NCBI GenBank assembly: GCA_963681505.1
Contig: OY811992.1
Coordinates: forward strand, 4,380,889-4,444,888
Source of the DNA: Eunapius fragilis
Taxonomy: Eukaryota > Porifera > Demospongiae > Spongillida > Spongillidae
Reading direction: 5' to 3'
DNA length: 64,000 nt
The notes under the pieces: generated by a model
Told to the model about the DNA's origin: nothing
Databases searched by the model: none
What the model saw: only the letters and a program-made list of their open reading frames with translations
Made by a program: the position numbers and the translations under genes
Part shown: positions 16,268 to 60,437 of the stretch, piece after piece
How the letters are laid out: each line of letters opens with the position of its first letter
How positions within the stretch are numbered: position 1 is the stretch's first letter

Positions 16268-19200
16268 TTAAGTTCGTTTTCGATGGACTATACCTCTCTT
16301 CTCCCTCTGTGGTTGTGAATCGAAGAGGTACTGTTTACTGAAATTTGAGGCACTTTGGCCCACAAAAAAATAGTGTGTGGTGTAAAATTCATTGCCAAAA
16401 AAAAAAAAAACTATACAACGAACATACCTTTCCTTAGCAATACCAAGTATTGCCTCAGCTGATCCTTGATTTTTCAACTCCATCAGTACATCATGAAGCT
16501 TTTTATAAGTAGCTCCACTTCCATCTCTGGCAATCCATTTTCTCAGAAATGCTTTTGCTTGATTTATCTCTCTGTTTTTATCTTCAATCTTCTGAATGAC
16601 TACTGGTCCAAACCGTAGCTTTTTTGCAACCGCTTGCCAGTCTGTCAGATTCTCTGCTATACTTTGTATATCTATATCATCTATTTTATTGTCTGCAAAC
16701 AAATAATAATAATAATTTATTTATTTATTTTATTTTTCATATCATGCTATTTTAGCATATGTACATTATTATTATAAGACTGCTTAGATGAATACACATC
16801 ACATAACCACAGTAAAATTAAGTTTTGCTCTATGCTGGTGGTGCTACCCTTGAAAGTATAGCTGTGGCATTGGCATGACCAGGTGAACATTCAACCGGCC
16901 ATAAATGACATGAGCACCACTGACTTTGGCTTGCACGTGGAGGTGGCACAAGTCTCGAGGTAATAGAAGATATGATGGCAGAGGCTTTTTAACTCCAAGC
17001 TGCTCCATATGATTGAGCCCCCATGGGGGTATGTATAATAAAAGCAGCATCATGGCTATCTGTCACTCCTTCAGAGGGTCTCGGTCTCCATTTTGATCCT
17101 TCCCAATTCCAGGTTGCAATGAAGAGCTAGCTTAGCCTGGGCGTTTCCTATGGTTCTTGCTGCCCTCTGTGTCCTGTACCTTCACTACCACTTTTGTTAA
17201 TCCATCTCCTCACAAATGATATTGCTTGCTTTCTAACTGTTTTGTTCTCTCTTCAATCTCCTCAATGACTACCTTCCAAAGCCCAACTTTTCTGCCACCT
17301 GTAAGGCTATGTGCTATCTTTGGTATGGCTGCATACCAATTTTGCCTGTCAATAACAATTAAGATTAAAATTCCTACTCCTTTCCCTACACATTTAGACA
17401 TATTCTCATTCACCTGTGTGCAATGATTTCACTAAAACATCCAGGAAACATTGTGTAGAAGTTGACCAAATTTTAAAAAGAATCATTTCACCACCACTAA
17501 CTTGTGTCAATCTATTCTATTGGTAGGTTCTATACAGTCCTTACTAATACAATCGTCATCTATAAGGCAAACTTAAATGCATTATCATATAGATATACAC
17601 CTTGCCATTTAAGCCATATAATTGAGCCATGGAAATAGAAAATACAGGTATTAGGTAAGTATAAAACGCTCATGTTATTTACAGTATCAGAACAAAATAC
17701 CTAGATAACTTCAGGGCTTACCAAAGATACTGGAGCAAGATGTGGAAACTGCTGAATGAGAAGACTGGTTGAAGGACATTTTTCGAGTTTCATCTTTACA
17801 GCATGTTGCCCAGGTGCCACTCTCTGTTACAATGATATCAGCATGGTGTCTTGCCTCTCCTCCACAGTCACCATGCCTGCAGTATGTAGCATCTATGATG
17901 TCTTCCTCTGCACACTGGTAGCCAAGGTGTGTACATGCACTCATGATCCCTCTGTGGACATCTGATAGCACAGAGGTGTGTGGAGATGGAAAATCAAGAC
18001 TCAGCACAAGGTGAACTGCGAGATACAAAAGGTTATCAATGACGGTAACTGTTGCTGGGAAACCTGAAGTTGAAAAGGCAGCTGAATTGCTATACAGACA
18101 TTTGGGCTTCCCCTCTTTTGTGCACACAGTCCATTTTGCATCATTGAGGAGGAAGGACACAAGGAAGCAAAAAACTCCATTGGGAAAACATCCTCCCTTG
18201 TACCGTAACAGGAAGGGTTCACCTGACAGCAGGGGCCCTAGGTGATTGCCTGATGGGAGGGGATCACCTGACATAAGGATAGACTGACAGCCTCTGAGGC
18301 ATAGCTCAGGAAGAAGGGCAGGCATCAGGTATTCTCCATTGCCCACTGGAGCCATTATTGAGTGACTGGTGAACAGCTTGATGAGGTCAGTGGATGAGAA
18401 CACTCCATCATAGTAGTGTCCAGGAAATTCATCTAGTAACTTCAGGGTTATATATGCATATTCTTTGAACCTTTTCCAATCACCACTAGTTGATTTGGTT
18501 GGATCTGGCTGCTCCAGTAATTTATAACGATGCTGAACCAGCTCTGTAATGATGCTAAGAAGAACTTGGGGGTTACTGAATACCACACCTGGAATGGTAT
18601 CCTTATAATACAGAAGGATATTGCACTCAGCAAGATGATTGAGAGCAGCAGTGAATGCTTCATCCTTCAGTTGAACACGCTCAGCTGCTTGCTTGCATTC
18701 CAAAACACTAAGTACTTCTCTCTTCTTTTTCTGAGCTAAGTCATGTAGAATCACCTCTAATCCAAACCAGGCAATGGGCATCTTCTTGGGTTTTGGATTT
18801 AGTTTGGATATCTCTCTGCGTAAATCTTTAGCAACCTTATTGTCTTTCATACCAGGTGTTTTGCAGTTGACACCAAAGATCACCTCTGTCATGTCTTCCC
18901 CCACATATAATGGTGTGCATCTTTTATTTAATTTTAGACTTTCATTAACTTTTTTGTTCTTATCTTTTCTTGTTTCAACACTAGCATCTTCCCAGTCCTC
19001 ATGAGTGCCTATCACTATAACTAGTGGACCATTATTTGGTTCACATGGGCCATCTTTACCAGCTGGACTGGACTGGAATGCCTTCAATGAACACTCCATT
19101 ACTTCTTTGTGTGAATAACATGTTTCACTGGTACTACCTATAATATTTCCATCACTTCCATAACACTCTATTTCTCGTGGCTGTTCAAATCTTTCTGACA

Positions 19201-22200
19201 GCTTGAGGACAAACAGCACTGCAGACAGGTTACCAACAAAGAATGGAAGGAGATGATGAAACTGTGGCTGACCACCACTGTCTATCAACTGGATCCACTT
19301 CATGCTTAGGTGTTCTTTATTACCTACAGACAGGAAATGATATAGTAATTCTCAGCAATTCAATAAACAAGAACAGCACAATAGTCACTACACAATAAAA
19401 ATTATCCACAAGTACAGAACCATAATTAAAGTTCTTGGCCTGTTACTACATTTTACCTGTAAGTTGGTTAATAATATTAATAAAGCTCTCTTCTACAGAC
19501 AGTTGACCTGAGGTATTCTCTAGTTGAATGAGATCAGGAGTAGAAGGAGCATGAACTAGTGGGTGGATGTCGTTTGTGTGCAAATGATGTTCATCTGGTG
19601 GTACTACCACATCATGTGCATGACTGCTGGGGACTGAAGTAAATAACACATTGTCATCCTTCCCATATCCACTTTCTGAGGGTCCTGGGTTACTTGAATG
19701 GCTAGCAGCAGGCTGTACCACAGATGAGTTATCCCTCTTGGGAAGAGGTACCACATATCCTTTGATCATCTGGCCCACTGTACGCATGAGGTCATAGTCT
19801 CCATCAAGGACATGCCAGTCATCCTCGTCTTGCTTTGACACACCCACTGCAGACACGGTCACAGCACGAACCAGGTTATCAGCGATCCCTGTGCTGGTCC
19901 TAAGCTCAGGAGGAGGCATTTTGAGGAGAAGATGTTTCAGATGTGTTTTTCCCACCCCAGCTGATCCATGGATAAGACATCTGATGATTGAACATTCAGC
20001 ATACCCCTTTGTCATGGCCTCATCATACAGCCTCTTGGCCTCATCATACAGCCTCTTGGCCTGCACTTTCTGTTCTTCAGATGGCACTAGTATGATAATG
20101 AATAATATGAAAATGCAATTGATAGCTGTAAACAGATTTGGCAGGTGGACTGCTATTGTATTGAGACTACACATGCAGCCTTTGTCAAAACATTTCATCT
20201 GATGATACCAAAATGAAATGCAAAGTTATACATGTATAGTAGAAAATTAAGTCTCTAAGCCACATATTAACATAACACTTGTTTTTTAGACACTCACCAG
20301 GTACAACAGCCTGAGATTGTTTCTTAATAATTCTGCTGACTATGGATGAGTTGTCTCCCCACAAACCAGTAAGGAGGCAGTCCACCAGTCCTTGCCATGA
20401 AGGTGTAACCTTATCACACCTCAGCCACAGAAAAACCACCTTAGTCAGACAGTCTTTGGGGGTGGTGCCAGATATCTCCTTCACCACTGATGGGTCCAGC
20501 TTCAGAGCCAGGCCAACGGCCTGCCATTGGTCCTTCAGCTCTGATATGGTATCAACCACCTCAAGGAGTGAGTTCTCATCTGTTAGAGAAATACATTAAC
20601 TGATCCAAATCAATCTCAATAACTGACTCACCAAGTTTTTCAGTGCTCAAAGAATGTCCTGCAATATCAATATATCATACAAAGCACATTGGTAAAGACA
20701 TGACTGCCAGTAACTGCATGTATGCATAGTTTAATGGTATTTCTCACAACACTTCATGGATCATGACATACTAAACCATGGCATTTAATACAATCGATGA
20801 AAGGCATCTTAGGTACAAGGGGTTGATATGCTGGGATGGAAAAACACCGGAGGTCATATCAACAGTTCACAGCAAATGTTATCGTTATGTGCTTTACTGT
20901 ATTGGAGGCCGGGGCCGATTATTATCACACAGGTTGGTTGTCAAATTGTTTATATATTAGCAACAATAGTGATAAAAGATGAATCACATCCATGTGTAAT
21001 GATATACTGTGCTCATATTGCAAAATCATCACAAAGTGTATCACTGAGCTACAATTCTAACTGTTGTGTTTTTGTTTTTAACCCAAGTCAAGTTCTGCAG
21101 TTTTTAATCATTATGTAGCATAAGCTCGAGCTGATACAATGAGCAACGCATGGGCTTGCTGTACAATGCATTAAAAACCCAAATATCAATTCGCCTGTGC
21201 AACAAATTACAGTGTCGTGACAGGAAGGCCTATCACTATAGAGCACCCAAGGACCAGATGTCTATCTATTTATGAATTTTCACTTATCTATATTCTAGAA
21301 AAAAACACAGATTCTAATCTACATGTGCGCCGGTTGTGTCAAACAATTGGCCTACATGTGTAACATGCCACTTGCATTGATCATTGTCGTCATTCTTGGT
21401 ATTTTGAAGCTAAAATTTAATGGCATTGAGACAATGATATTTTTAAAAGAGCATTCAAATATCTATGTAGAAGTTAATTAATAAATTAAGTTCCATTGTG
21501 TGACAACCAACTGCCATGGGGCTGGTTACCCCTTTATTTTATTAATGAGGCTGCTTTTAAAATAGCTAAAGTGTGCTTTGTTTAGATGATGCCCTTTTAT
21601 TGTGAAAAATGCTATTTTAAAGGCACTTTCAAAAAGGGTGATGTAACATGACATATAATATGTGACAACTGGGCCTACTCTTATATTACTGCAATACTGT
21701 CTCACACATATTGATTCATCATACACAACACTAGGATGCTCCCTACCACTCGTATTGTGTCTTGGCACAGGATGGGACTGCTGCAATGCTTTGGCCACTC
21801 CCTCCATATTGATCTGTGCAATGGCTTTGATCAGGTGACTCCAGGTGGGGAGACTGCTCAAACTGGAGTTCAGCTTCAACCACTCCACTACAACTTTGTT
21901 CAAACATGATGCAGCAGGAGTGTTATGGGATTTCATACAATCCAGAGTATATCTGTCAATACTTAGCTGAGCCCCAAGATTGTACCATTTCTTATAAATA
22001 CGTTTTAGTTCTTTACAGACTCTACGGGAGTGTTGTCTTCCTATGAATATTTACATAACAATCAATCATCACTAAGTGTATTCATTACATCGTACAAGTG
22101 TAACATCACAATTGTTCAAATAGTAATTACCCTTAGAGCACCACTGCATTACCATTAACATTTGTCTGTCTATATACTCTTCAGTGAAGTAATAAAGACA

Positions 22201-25200
22201 CCATTTGTGCCTCGTACAAACTTGTGAAGCCAGTGGTACCCCCTCTTGCCTCCCCTCAAGCTAATTTAGATTAATGCTCCACAACAAGAAATAAAACATA
22301 CCAATGAATCTTGCATCTGCAGGAGCTAGGTGAGATAATGCAGTTTCTTCAGCCAGAGAAACATTGTTCCCTCCAGCAGGATGGGCAATGGCCTTCACCA
22401 ATGTTTGCCAACATGGCTCCATGCAGCAGTCAAACATGTGCCTATCCCCATCTAACCACCACCTCATGATCCTGCTCATCTGACCTGAAGGCAGACCCTT
22501 CAGGTCCTCCAGGAGGAACATCTTCACCCCAAGGTAAAATCCAACATCATACCATGGTTCAATGTGGGGAATGCTGTCAGCTCTCAGTCCTGAAGCACCC
22601 AAAATTAGACTAAAAGCAAGCCAACAGCACCTAAATAAAACATACCAACTTTGGTCATGTCCACCAACTGAAGATACTTCATTCCTATTGTAAAAGAATG
22701 ATTTGCATTTTCTCATCTACAAGACTAATAGAAGGACAATTGCTGGAACTACATAACTTGAGTTAATAATTTGATTGCTGAATAAAATACAAAAGTAATT
22801 AACAGAGGTATAAATTTATCCAATTGCTGGATTTATGCAAGGTAATCATATGATCATTTTCCTTTTGCTTACAAAAGGATGGAGTATTAATATTTTGTTC
22901 TTATACATTTAATTTAATACCTTGCACAAATACCAGATTGTGACAAAGAATAGCCAAGAATCTTTACGAGTGCAAGACTGAATATTTTGTCAAATTTGTT
23001 GTATGAATGTCACATTATGATGATACCTAAATATCAAGTTACTTGATACAAAATGTGAAGACCATGTAACATAATTGGAGATGGAGTAAAGATGAAATTC
23101 CCCTTATAATGAGAGTACAACTATACGTTGATAAAGTACATATTTAAATCAACCTGTGGAATAAAATGGTCATAAATTACTTGCTTCAAACATGGCATAC
23201 CTGTCCAATTCTTCAGGAAGTTTTCTATCATTCTACTGTGTATTGGAACTGGATAATGCAGTTTACTGCAGTCACAGCCATATTTAAATACCAATGCTCG
23301 TAACAGAGCAACGTTGCCCATACTAAAAGCGATTTGAAGGATGGTCCTACCACCAGCACCTTTGGTGTTGATGTCACAGTGAAAAACATTGATTAACATC
23401 TCCACACACTCCACACTGCCACCTAAACCAGCATGCATGAATGGAGTATGACCATCAACATCTTGAGCACTGAGGTCACAGCCGTAACTCATAACCAGCA
23501 GTCTCACCAGGGAGGTGTGGCCTTTGTTACATGCTTTATGAATAATAGCCCTACCCTTATAGTCCTTGGTGTTGATGTCACAGTTAAAATCATTGATCAG
23601 TAGCTTTACACACTCCACACTGCCACCTACACCAGCACATGTGAATGGTGTATCACCATCTGCATCTCGAGCATTGAGGTCACAGCCATACTTGGTAACC
23701 AGCCATCTCACCAGGGAGGTGTGGCCCTTGACACAAGCATTATGAAGGATGGTTCTTCCATTGGTGTTGATGTTACAGTGAAAATCATTGATCAGTAGCT
23801 CCACACACTCCACACTACCACCTAAACCAGCACATGTTAATGGCATATCACCATCTGCATCTCGTGCGTTGAGGTCACATTTATACTTGCGAACCAGCAA
23901 TCTTACAAGGGAGGTATGGCCTTTAAAACATGCATTATGAAGGATAGTTCTGCTATGAAACCCTACGGTGTTGACGACACAGTGGAAATCATTGATCAGT
24001 AGCTCCACACACTCCTCACTACCACCTAAACCAGCACATGTTAATGGTGTATCACCATCTGCATCTCGTGCGTTGAGGTCACATTTATACTTGTGAACCA
24101 GCAATCTTACAAGGGACGTGTGGCCTTTAACACATGCATTATGAAGGATAGTTCTGCCATGAAACCCTTTGGTATTGATGTCACAGCTAAATTCGTTGAT
24201 CAATAATTCCACACACTCCACACTGCCACTGAATCCAGCACATGTGAATGGTGTATCACCATCTGCATCTCGAGCATTGAGGTCACAGCCATAACTCATA
24301 ACCAGCAGTCTCACCAGGGAGGTGTGGCCTTTGTTACAAGCTTTATGAAGGATAGTCCCACCTTTAGAGTCGATTGTGTTGATGTCACAGTGAAAATCAT
24401 TGATCAATAGCTCCACACACTCCACACTGCCACTGAAACCAGTACACGCAAATGGTGTATCACCATGTACATCTCGAGCATTCAGGTCACAGCCATGCTT
24501 GGTAACCAGCAATCGCACCAGGGAGGTGTGACCTTTGACACATGCATTATGAAGGATAGTCCTACCATGAAATCCCTTGGTGTTGATGTCACAGTGAAAA
24601 TCATTGATCAATAGCTCCACACACTCCAGACTGCCACCTAAACCAGCATGTGTGAATGGTGGATCACCATTAGCTTGTTGAGCATTGATGTCACAGCCAT
24701 ATGTGGTTACCAGCAGTCTCACTAGAGATGTGTGGCCATTAGCACATGCTTTATGAAGGATAGTCCTACCCTTGAAGTCCTTAGTGCTGATGTCAGAGTG
24801 AAAATCATTGATCAACATCGCCACACACTCCACACTGCCACCTAAACCAGCATGCATGAATGGTGTATGACCATCAGCATCTCTAGCATTGAGATCACAA
24901 TCATAATTGGTAACTAGTAGTCGCACTAGAGAGGTTAGGCCTTTGTTACATGCTTTATGAAGGATAGTCTTACCATTAGAGTCCTTGGCATTGATGTCAT
25001 AGAAGAAATCCTTTATCAGTAGTTCCACACACTTCATACTACTACCTAAACAAGCATGTGTGAATGGTGTATCACCATTTACATCTTGAGCCTTGAGGTC
25101 ACAGCCATACTTGGTGACCAGTTGTCTCACCAGGGATGTGTGGCCGCTGACACATGCATTATGAAGGATAGTTCTACCATGAATACCCTTGCTGTTGACA

Positions 25201-26513
25201 TCATAGTGAAAATCATTGACCAGTAGCTCTACACACTCCATACTGCCACTTAAACCAGTGAGTGTTAAGGGTGTATCACCATTTTCATCTGTAACATTGA
25301 GGTCACAGCCATACTTGTTAATCAGAAGTCTCACCAGTGAGGTGTGACCCTTGTTACATGCATTGTGAAGGATAGTTCTACCATTTGCTCCCTTGCTTTT
25401 TATGTCACAGCTAAATTCGTTGATCAATAGCTCCACACACTCCACACTGCCACTCAATCCAGCACATATGAATGGTGTATCGCCATCTGCATCTCGAGCA
25501 TTAAGGTCACAGCCATACTTGTTAATCAGAAGTCTCACCAGGGAGGTGTGGCCTTTGACACAAGCATTATGAAGGATAGTTCTACCATGAAATCCCTTGG
25601 TGTTGATGGTACAGTGAAAAACATTGATCATTACCTCCACACACTCCACACTGCCTCCTAAACCAGCACATGTAAATGGTGTATCACCACCTGCATCTCT
25701 AGCATTGAGGTCACAGTCATACTTGGTAACCAGCAGACCCACCATAGTGGTTTGGCCATTGACACATGCATTATGAAGGATAGTTCTACCATGAAATCCC
25801 TTGGTGTTGATGGCACAGTGAAAAACATTGATCAGTAGCTCCACACACTCCACACTGCCTCCTAAACCAGCACACGTAAATGGTGTATCACCACCTGCAT
25901 CTCTAGCATTGATGTCACAGTCATACTTGGTAACCAACAGTCTCACCAGGGAAGTGTGTCTTTTGACACATGCAATATGAAGGATAGTTCTACCATTAGC
26001 ATCCTTCGTGTTGATGTCAAATTGAAAATCATTAGTCAGTAGCTCCACACACTGAACGCTGCCTCCTAAACCAGCACATGTGAATGGTGTATTTCCATCT
26101 GCATCTCGAGCGTTGAGGTCACAGCCATACTCGGTAACCAGCAATCTCACCAGGGAGGTGTGGCCTTTGACACATGCATTATGAAGGATAGTTCTACCAT
26201 GAAATCCCTTGGTGTTGATATCACAGTGAAAATGATTTAGTAGCAGCTCCGCACATTCAATACTGCCTCCTAAACCAGCACACGTGAATGGTGTATTGTC
26301 ATCTGCATCTCGAGCATTGAGGTCACAGCCGTACGTGGTAACCAGCAGTCTCACCAGGGAGGCGTGACCTCCAATACATGCAGCGTGAAGCGCCTCTGTT
26401 CCGCGGCATATGTCGTTGTGGGACTCTATCAATGTCTTCACTTCTTCTGCATTCCCTTTCAAAGCTGCCGCCTTAATACGATCTTCGATCATTGTGACAA
26501 TCGACGGATCCAT
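16268..26513 (-). CDS. ANK-DEATH-ROC/COR-DEATH multidomain protein (~2256 aa)
   Basis: Nine exons on the minus strand: 26513-23201, 22589-22302, 22040-21747, 20658-20632 (27-nt microexon), 20579-20298, 20086-19457, 19323-17722, 16692-16428, 16337-16268. Phases match at every junction (all phase 1 except the last, phase 2); 6771 nt. Residues 1-1104 are N-terminal helices plus about 31 ankyrin repeats. Three DEATH-like domains follow at about 1110-1190, 1210-1290 and 1310-1395. A nucleotide-binding domain has a P-loop GSAGVGKT (about 1440), a long insert, DSGGQ (about 1626, G3-like) and GTHED (about 1715, G4-like). Next comes a COR-like region to about 2145, then a C-terminal DEATH domain (LTDWQAVAKKLRFG, about 2150-2230). 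ROCO proteins such as DAPK1 also combine ANK, ROC-COR and DEATH, but no kinase is seen here. Inferred role: a cytosolic scaffold or switch in apoptosis-like or innate-immune signalling. The microexon and the exon 3 donor are the least certain parts; two adjacent genes (ANK-DEATH and DEATH-ROCO) remain possible. Confidence 0.75.
17150..17350 (-). pseudogene. Relic DEATH-domain exon in an intron
   Basis: On the minus strand the frame WYAAIPKIAHSL...VVIEEIEERTKQLES, followed after a frame change by VRRWINKSGSEGTG, aligns by eye with WQAVAKKLRFG...VVIQKIEDKNREINQ and LRKWIARDGSGAT of the functional C-terminal DEATH exon at 16692-16428. The frame is broken and no usable splice frame remains. It looks like a tandem exon duplicate that has decayed, lying in the intron just upstream of its intact paralogue. 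Confidence 0.6.
20659..21746 (-). other. Long intron of the ANK-ROCO gene
   Basis: About 1.1 kb between the exon ending 21747 and the microexon at 20658-20632. Plus-strand open frames here (20778-21118) have no recognised motif. No repeat structure stands out. Confidence 0.45.
23300..26400 (-). repeat. Tandem 204-bp double-ankyrin repeat units in coding DNA
   Basis: Fifteen full 68-residue units plus one partial unit, each consisting of two ankyrin repeats: one beginning GRTILHNACVKGHTSLVRLL and one beginning GDTPFTCAGLGGSVECVELL. One unit (near 23760) is about three residues short. Identity between units is high at the nucleotide level, which implies recent expansion or homogenisation. The final unit degenerates (GRTILQIAF, then ALLRALVFKYGCD) before the first intron donor. 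Confidence 0.92.

Positions 26514-31934: not shown

Positions 31935-36308
<4,374 letters not shown>

Positions 36309-46858: not shown

Positions 46859-60437
<13,579 letters not shown>

Follow-up and report, generated by a model that had tools for sequence, protein, structure and literature searches.

Does the run of exons between positions 16268 and 26513 of a 64,000-nucleotide (nt) stretch of the genome of the sponge Eunapius fragilis, in which an ankyrin array, several death domains and a ROC-COR GTPase follow one another, belong to one gene or to two, and what kind of protein would it encode? The stretch (contig OY811992.1, positions 4,380,889 to 4,444,888; hereafter the window, whose own positions are used throughout) had been the subject of an earlier note, which joined nine exons into a single gene and presented the product as a new architecture and possibly a sponge-type signalling system. 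Comparison with further copies in the same genome (218.9 Mb in 24 contigs, where the window is C22:4380889-4444888) and with predicted proteins of the sponge Ephydatia muelleri bears out the order that the note had given, namely ankyrin, three DEATH domains, ROC, COR and a last DEATH domain. As judged from genomic sequence, the anatomy of gene and protein can be put forward with high confidence; how such a protein would work is a more tentative matter.

Gene structure

The nine-exon join was reproduced exactly in its exon coordinates, its phases, the GT-AG borders of its eight introns and its single open frame of 2256 amino acids (aa), with phase 1 at seven of the eight junctions and phase 2 at the last. 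A conserved coding exon of 39 nt at 22684-22646 had been overlooked, and the nine-exon single-gene model as first given is ruled out by it; the corrected model has 10 exons and 2269 aa. Exons 2 to 8 (39, 288, 294, 27, 282, 630 and 1602 nt) are all symmetric, so that seven phase 1-1 exons stand in succession.

Exon 1 (23201..26513, on the reverse strand like every exon of the gene) holds the start codon and the ankyrin array (Pfam Ank_2, 1.4e-194), and ends at a phase-1 donor, CAG|GTATGC. Its 31 helix-2 signatures, 32-35 residues apart, agree with the earlier count of about 31 repeats; these are arranged in 68-aa double units, and at the nucleotide level the exon holds a 204-nt tandem unit in 14.8 copies. 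At the other end of the gene, exon 10 (16268..16337) encodes a short basic tail and the stop codon; retention of the intron before it (16427-16338, 90 nt) also leaves the frame open, so this splice is unproven.

The overlooked exon, exon 2 (22646..22684), encodes G-MKYLQLVDMTKV-G and sits, reading MKYLQLVDMTKVG, between the ankyrin donor and the first DEATH exon. Ten of its 13 residues are identical to the N-terminus of the Ephydatia protein P0003, a match for which 20,000 Markov copies of that intron reach 7 at most, and all other ATGs in the window, on both strands, no more than 6. The acceptor AG of the exon has the top score among the 27 AGs of that stretch (with a small splice-site matrix, built from seven introns only), and its donor is GTATGT.

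One gene or two

Five close ROC-COR matches were found in the genome, comprising the window and four sister copies at 78-84% (C22b, C22a, C8 and C4), around each of which 17.8-17.9 kb was examined. In three of the four sisters (C22b, C22a and C8), as in the window, an ankyrin array in sense precedes the first death domain (DD1), and the same three have the 39-nt exon. The ankyrin tails align up to the phase-1 donor (window WT|G GTATGC, C22a WR|G GTATGT, C8 GK|G GTATGC); the tail of C22b has diverged, and the donor taken there, TE|G GTGAGA, is one of four phase-1 GTs, against 5 in the tail of the window, 8 in C22a and 4 in C8. Because the window and three of four sisters share an ankyrin frame, a phase-1 donor and then the 39-nt exon, we read the ankyrin exon and the death-domain exons as very probably one gene, in agreement with the earlier note. 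The fourth sister, C4, has no ankyrin, no 39-nt exon and just 11 DD1-like residues in the stretch examined, while it retains DD2, DD3, ROC, COR and DD4.

The model favoured at first was a pair of neighbouring genes, one for ankyrin that ends near 23121 and one for three death domains, ROC, COR and a death domain (1164 aa) that starts from the ATG at 22682, since the Ephydatia models lack ankyrin; the sister copies in the same genome overturned it, and we now hold it to be very improbable. Several observations do weigh on its side. The Ephydatia models P0002-P0004 begin just before DD1 with short leaders, and the leader of P0003 is the one that matches the 39-nt exon; an acceptor 47 nt further on is compatible with the ankyrin donor at 23201 too, and would bring an immediate stop; and five DD1 loci elsewhere in the genome have no convincing 39-nt-like exon (four no candidate, one a candidate with 5/13 residues). 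The Ephydatia models are, however, AUGUSTUS predictions, whose authors mention incomplete models (PMC7385117), and they may be 5'-incomplete, or the ankyrin part may be absent in Ephydatia. In E. fragilis the window, C22a and C8 share a recognisable ankyrin tail and phase-1 donor, whereas the stop codons past the chosen donor lie at unrelated distances: 77 nt in the window, 134 in C22b, 23 in C22a and 53 in C8. The nearest AG lies 2 nt upstream of the ATG of the 39-nt exon in the window, C22b and C22a, and 5 nt upstream in C8; in a tandem copy without ROC, described below, an exon of this kind (9/13 residues) has its AG 2 nt before the ATG. The distance is thus 2 modulo 3 in all five copies that have the exon, as expected of an internal coding exon joined in frame to a phase-1 donor.

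A genome search with DD1 gave 36 matches, and six further DD1 loci were examined, five elsewhere and the tandem copy at C22:1855023. All six have ankyrin matches upstream, and in five of them a similar tail (KKSWN, KEHWK and others) leads up to a phase-1 G|GTA donor, the exception being L036, whose ankyrin frame is broken. Ankyrin thus stands upstream in all 10 examined loci that retain DD1, a further point against two genes. So is the composition of the 436-nt stretch that separates the ankyrin stop from the 39-nt exon (GC 0.29, CpG observed/expected 0.11), which is nearer that of the gene's introns (GC 0.32-0.38, CpG 0-0.43) than that of the flanks (0.38-0.43 and 0.89-1.18).

Other comparisons carried little or no weight. 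P0053, an ankyrin-only protein, shows a similar tail and then G-K, which is how the donor would read, a weak resemblance in protein letters only; ungapped nucleotide identity on the two sides of the ankyrin donor (31 of 60 before it, 26 of 60 after it) does not discriminate; poly(A)-like hexamers in intron 1 count for nothing in so AT-rich a stretch; and a sigma-70 promoter scan is valueless for an animal gene.

The succession of seven phase 1-1 exons would also permit one locus to yield alternative products by exon skipping or alternative promoters: ankyrin-death-domain forms lacking the GTPase, and death-domain-ROC-COR forms lacking ankyrin, of which the Ephydatia models could be instances. 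The tandem copy (L038, L024; C22:1855301-1851767, just upstream of C22a) is suggestive in this respect: it has ankyrin, the 39-nt exon, DD1-DD3 and DD4, the donor of DD3 agrees in phase with the acceptor of DD4, and the 1525 nt between the two domains contain no ROC-COR match, so it appears to be a GTPase-less relative. Symmetry of exons can, however, simply record exon shuffling; we regard alternative products as unlikely, and keep to a single gene with a single full-length protein in what follows.

Death domains

The earlier note placed three DEATH domains before the GTPase, and Pfam recognises the second. DD2 (exon 4, 21747..22040) matches Pfam Death at 2.2e-5 and 25.0 bits in the trimmed exon (cut-off 22.6), and at 22.5 bits in the longer open frame. 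DD4, the domain after COR (exon 9, 16428..16692), matches more strongly (5.7e-11, 42.8 bits, same cut-off). The exons of DD1 (exon 3, 22302..22589) and DD3 (exon 6, 20298..20579) have no Pfam match, so that two of the three exons between 22589 and 20298, on whose DEATH fold the note had staked its reading, are unsupported by that search, and a profile search of the PDB sequences adds nothing in their favour: DD1 found designed armadillo repeats (0.0046-0.028) and no death domain, DD3 one unrelated match at 0.35. The Pfam result counts in part against three upstream DEATH domains. Profile-profile comparison, on the other hand, places both in the death fold: with hhalign, DD3 reaches 95.4% to DD4 and 91.5% to DD2, and five of the six pairs among DD1-DD4 lie at 64.7-95.4%, while 56 control pairs stay at or below 1.5%. 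For DD1, fold-level evidence adds weak support. Between DD2 and DD3, exon 5 (20632..20658) encodes a 27-nt linker with counterparts in P0002 and P0003, where each alignment has a one-residue gap close to the border.

The ROC-COR GTPase

Exon 7 (19457..20086) carries the first part of ROC, with the G1 motif or P-loop GSAGVGKT (19944..19967) and most of a long insert between G1 and G3; exon 8 (17722..19323) carries the rest of ROC and COR, with G3 DSGGQ at 19282-19268 and G4 GTHED at 19009-18995. All three motifs are thus present, at a G1-G3 spacing of 176 residues, and the ROC domain is predicted to bind and hydrolyse GTP. Pfam Roc scores 0.025 in the window protein, below the cut-off, and is reached at E <= 0.1 by 19 of 22 relatives (best 1.9e-4), while the G1 pattern occurs in all 52 relatives that a search with the last 1152 aa of the protein brought up. 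Structure comparison was made on the homologue: Ephydatia P0002 (about 336-1026) aligned with RocCOR structures by Foldseek and VIA, with COR directly after ROC. A ROC-COR fold for the family is supported by this homologue rather than by the window protein itself. Against PDB sequences the ROC-COR profile found Rab6 (0.0077) and LRRK2 (0.026), and exon 8 gave a single match, at 1.6.

A Pfam scan of seven exon frames gave no kinase match (a kinase exon was not looked for in the DNA upstream of exon 1) and no leucine-rich repeat (LRR) match. Nor did it give a NACHT or NB-ARC match, the only signs being AAA_16 at 0.15 and, within the ankyrin array, an iSTAND row with 0 stretches, neither of which reaches the cut-off; among the 22 relatives, NACHT appeared in one (0.044) and nSTAND3 in one (0.065).

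A family of relatives in sponges

A search with the full-length protein gave one match among 3014 candidates, a Kelch protein; the C-terminal 1152 aa gave 52 relatives, the closest of which include Ephydatia P0002-P0004. Scans of the prokaryotic and viral contigs, each with a protein query and an alignment query, found no relative, and Rfam at the gathering threshold gave no match. At least 81 ROC-COR matches lie in the window's own genome, 41 of the 81 on contig C2, 16 on C1 and 7 on C7, in big clusters, some with Kelch upstream, that look like a lineage-specific expansion. These copies and the Ephydatia homologues support a sponge family. Kelch motifs in sense lie within 10 kb upstream of 24 of the 81 matches, and downstream, on any strand, of 1 (a count based on 53 hand-picked Kelch matches out of 138; the others are distant from any ROC-COR match or on contigs that have none). 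DD1-like domains also occur at many other loci, including C5 0.23-0.68 Mb, C19, C10 and C1; at the five of these examined (L033-L037), which have ankyrin upstream, no match to the ROC-COR of the window gene was found within the 9.9 kb covered.

A death domain follows COR in all five close copies and is of two kinds: one in the window, C22a and C4, the other in C22b and C8 (Pfam Death 7.8e-5 for C8), where it resembles the end of P0003; the splice phases at these sister exons were not checked. The exon regions compared between copies contain no stops, with a ratio of nonsynonymous to synonymous substitution (dN/dS) of 0.29-0.87 overall, the value for the 39-nt exon coming from 12 codons only, and of 0.34-0.39 in the ROC/COR exon. 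DD1 and DD3 have a lower dS (0.09-0.21) than the ROC/COR exon (0.23-0.37), possibly a sign of gene conversion at the level of exons. The Ephydatia relative P0017 has an SMP-30/gluconolactonase-type match after its ROC-COR region, perhaps another C-terminal swap.

Comparison with known systems

Novelty had been claimed for three DEATH domains ahead of ROC, and that part stands; the claim was overstated in that DAPK1, of ROCO group 3, is already described with the order ankyrin, ROC, COR and death domain (PMC6320773). On sequence grounds the gene is a variant of the ROCO family with a DAPK1-like order; the three additional DEATH domains that stand between the ankyrin array and ROC, the lack of a kinase match in the exons scanned, the insert in ROC (176-residue G1-G3 spacing with DSGGQ at G3, DAPK1's own spacing not having been measured) and the exon-modular expansion appear to be new. 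In the open-access literature, by titles and abstract openings and with few subscription papers covered, we recognised neither three death domains before ROC, nor such an insert or expansion, nor a sponge DEATH-ROC-COR family.

LRRK1, LRRK2 and the Roco protein of C. tepidum share the ROC-COR fold, as judged on P0002, and the LRRK2 chain aligned has a G4 of the form GTHxD; unlike them, the sponge exons scanned have death domains and no LRR or kinase match, and the LRRs that precede ROC in LRRK and MASL1 were not found in the seven exon frames. Closest are Ephydatia P0002 (Em0002g1924a), P0003 (Em0003g1430a) and P0004 (Em0002g1911a), with three death domains, ROC and COR in the same order, and identities over aligned residues of 65.6% for P0002 and 71.8% for P0003. 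They differ in that their models lack ankyrin, P0003 has the other kind of death domain at its C-terminus, and P0004 stops before that domain. The Kelch-ROC-COR proteins of Ephydatia and the Kelch-neighboured loci of this genome belong to the same ROC-COR family, and most of these proteins keep DSGGQ and the long insert, but Kelch replaces ankyrin and the three death domains, and identity is about 32-38%. The ankyrin-ROC proteins P0054, P0055 and P0068 (from ENA assemblies) likewise join ankyrin and then ROC in one frame; they have no Death match at E <= 0.01, and DFAG[NQ] at G3 with a spacing of 46-55 residues, found in five motif hits measured (including P0055 and P0068), differs from the window. 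Sponge NLRs and the Death/TRADD-N proteins of Amphimedon also join death-fold domains to an NTPase or to ankyrin (PMC12909245, PMC8195603), the latter in units of 1-3 death-like domains, some then followed by ankyrins, as described in PMC8195603; compared with both groups, the window GTPase is of ROCO type and the exons scanned lack a NACHT or NB-ARC match.

A possible death-fold switch

While computation supports the anatomy, the domain folds, the GTPase motifs, the paralogues, the in-frame exon modularity and the two kinds of C-terminal death domain, we infer from analogy the ligand binding, GTP-dependent switching, death-domain assembly and immune or cell-death role of the protein. We lean slightly towards one intracellular ROCO protein, with 31 ankyrin repeats, three death domains, ROC, COR and a last death domain, working as a death-fold switch. 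The ankyrin array would bind a ligand or partner; binding would alter the nucleotide or dimer state of ROC-COR; this would expose or line up the death domains, which would bring in death-fold adaptors and nucleate a signalling assembly (for cell death or inflammatory signalling), with the C-terminal death domain setting the choice of partner. The proposed sensing, gating and assembly are modelled on the Roco protein of C. tepidum, which shifts between monomer and dimer with nucleotide (PMC6337361), on DAPK1, whose kinase activity is reported to be lowered by GTP binding to ROC (PMC6320773), and on the AP-GTPases (with DAPK as animal example), which PMC8195603 describes as acting as switches in the conflict systems of bacteria and animals; as a whole the scheme is somewhat doubtful.

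The solved sequences nearest to DD4 are ankyrin-3 and ankyrin-1, and human ROCO proteins are described as varied in their roles (PMC6320773), both of which would suit a regulator of stress, cytoskeleton or self-recognition in which the death domains, like those of ankyrins, are plain protein-protein contacts with no part in immunity or death. RIPK1 is, however, next among the solved relatives of DD4, and a large paralogous family would be typical of immune or recognition genes; such a regulator seems to us rather unlikely.

More speculatively, the death-fold switch may be one member of a sponge receptor toolkit that has ROCO GTPases at its base in place of NACHT ATPases: parallel to NLR inflammasomes, GTP-gated death-fold assemblies might be put together from phase-1 exon modules (ankyrin or Kelch sensors, death-domain stacks, ROC-COR and an interchangeable C-terminal death domain) into dozens of receptors, some without the GTPase. 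The locus points to a ROCO protein that is like DAPK1 yet lies outside the kinase setting, carries a death-domain stack before the GTPase and has exon borders that permit the exchange of modules. If the switch idea is true, sponges would have an NLR-like branch of animal ROCO proteins, and the passing of the nucleotide state of ROC-COR to neighbouring domains would be testable by a death-domain read-out. One species with homologues, Ephydatia muelleri, is said to be easy to grow in laboratory culture (PMC7385117).

Other features of the window

Elsewhere in the window, an exon of a cation efflux protein (zinc transporter type; Pfam 7.6e-25) lies on the reverse strand at 33272-33922. RCC1-like and HECT exons on the forward strand (53799-54230 and 58157-58519) are perhaps parts of one large HERC-type ubiquitin ligase gene. 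Between 40900 and 46600, also on the forward strand, near-identical units containing a repeated 124-aa frame follow one another in tandem as far as a run of N at about 46.6 kb.

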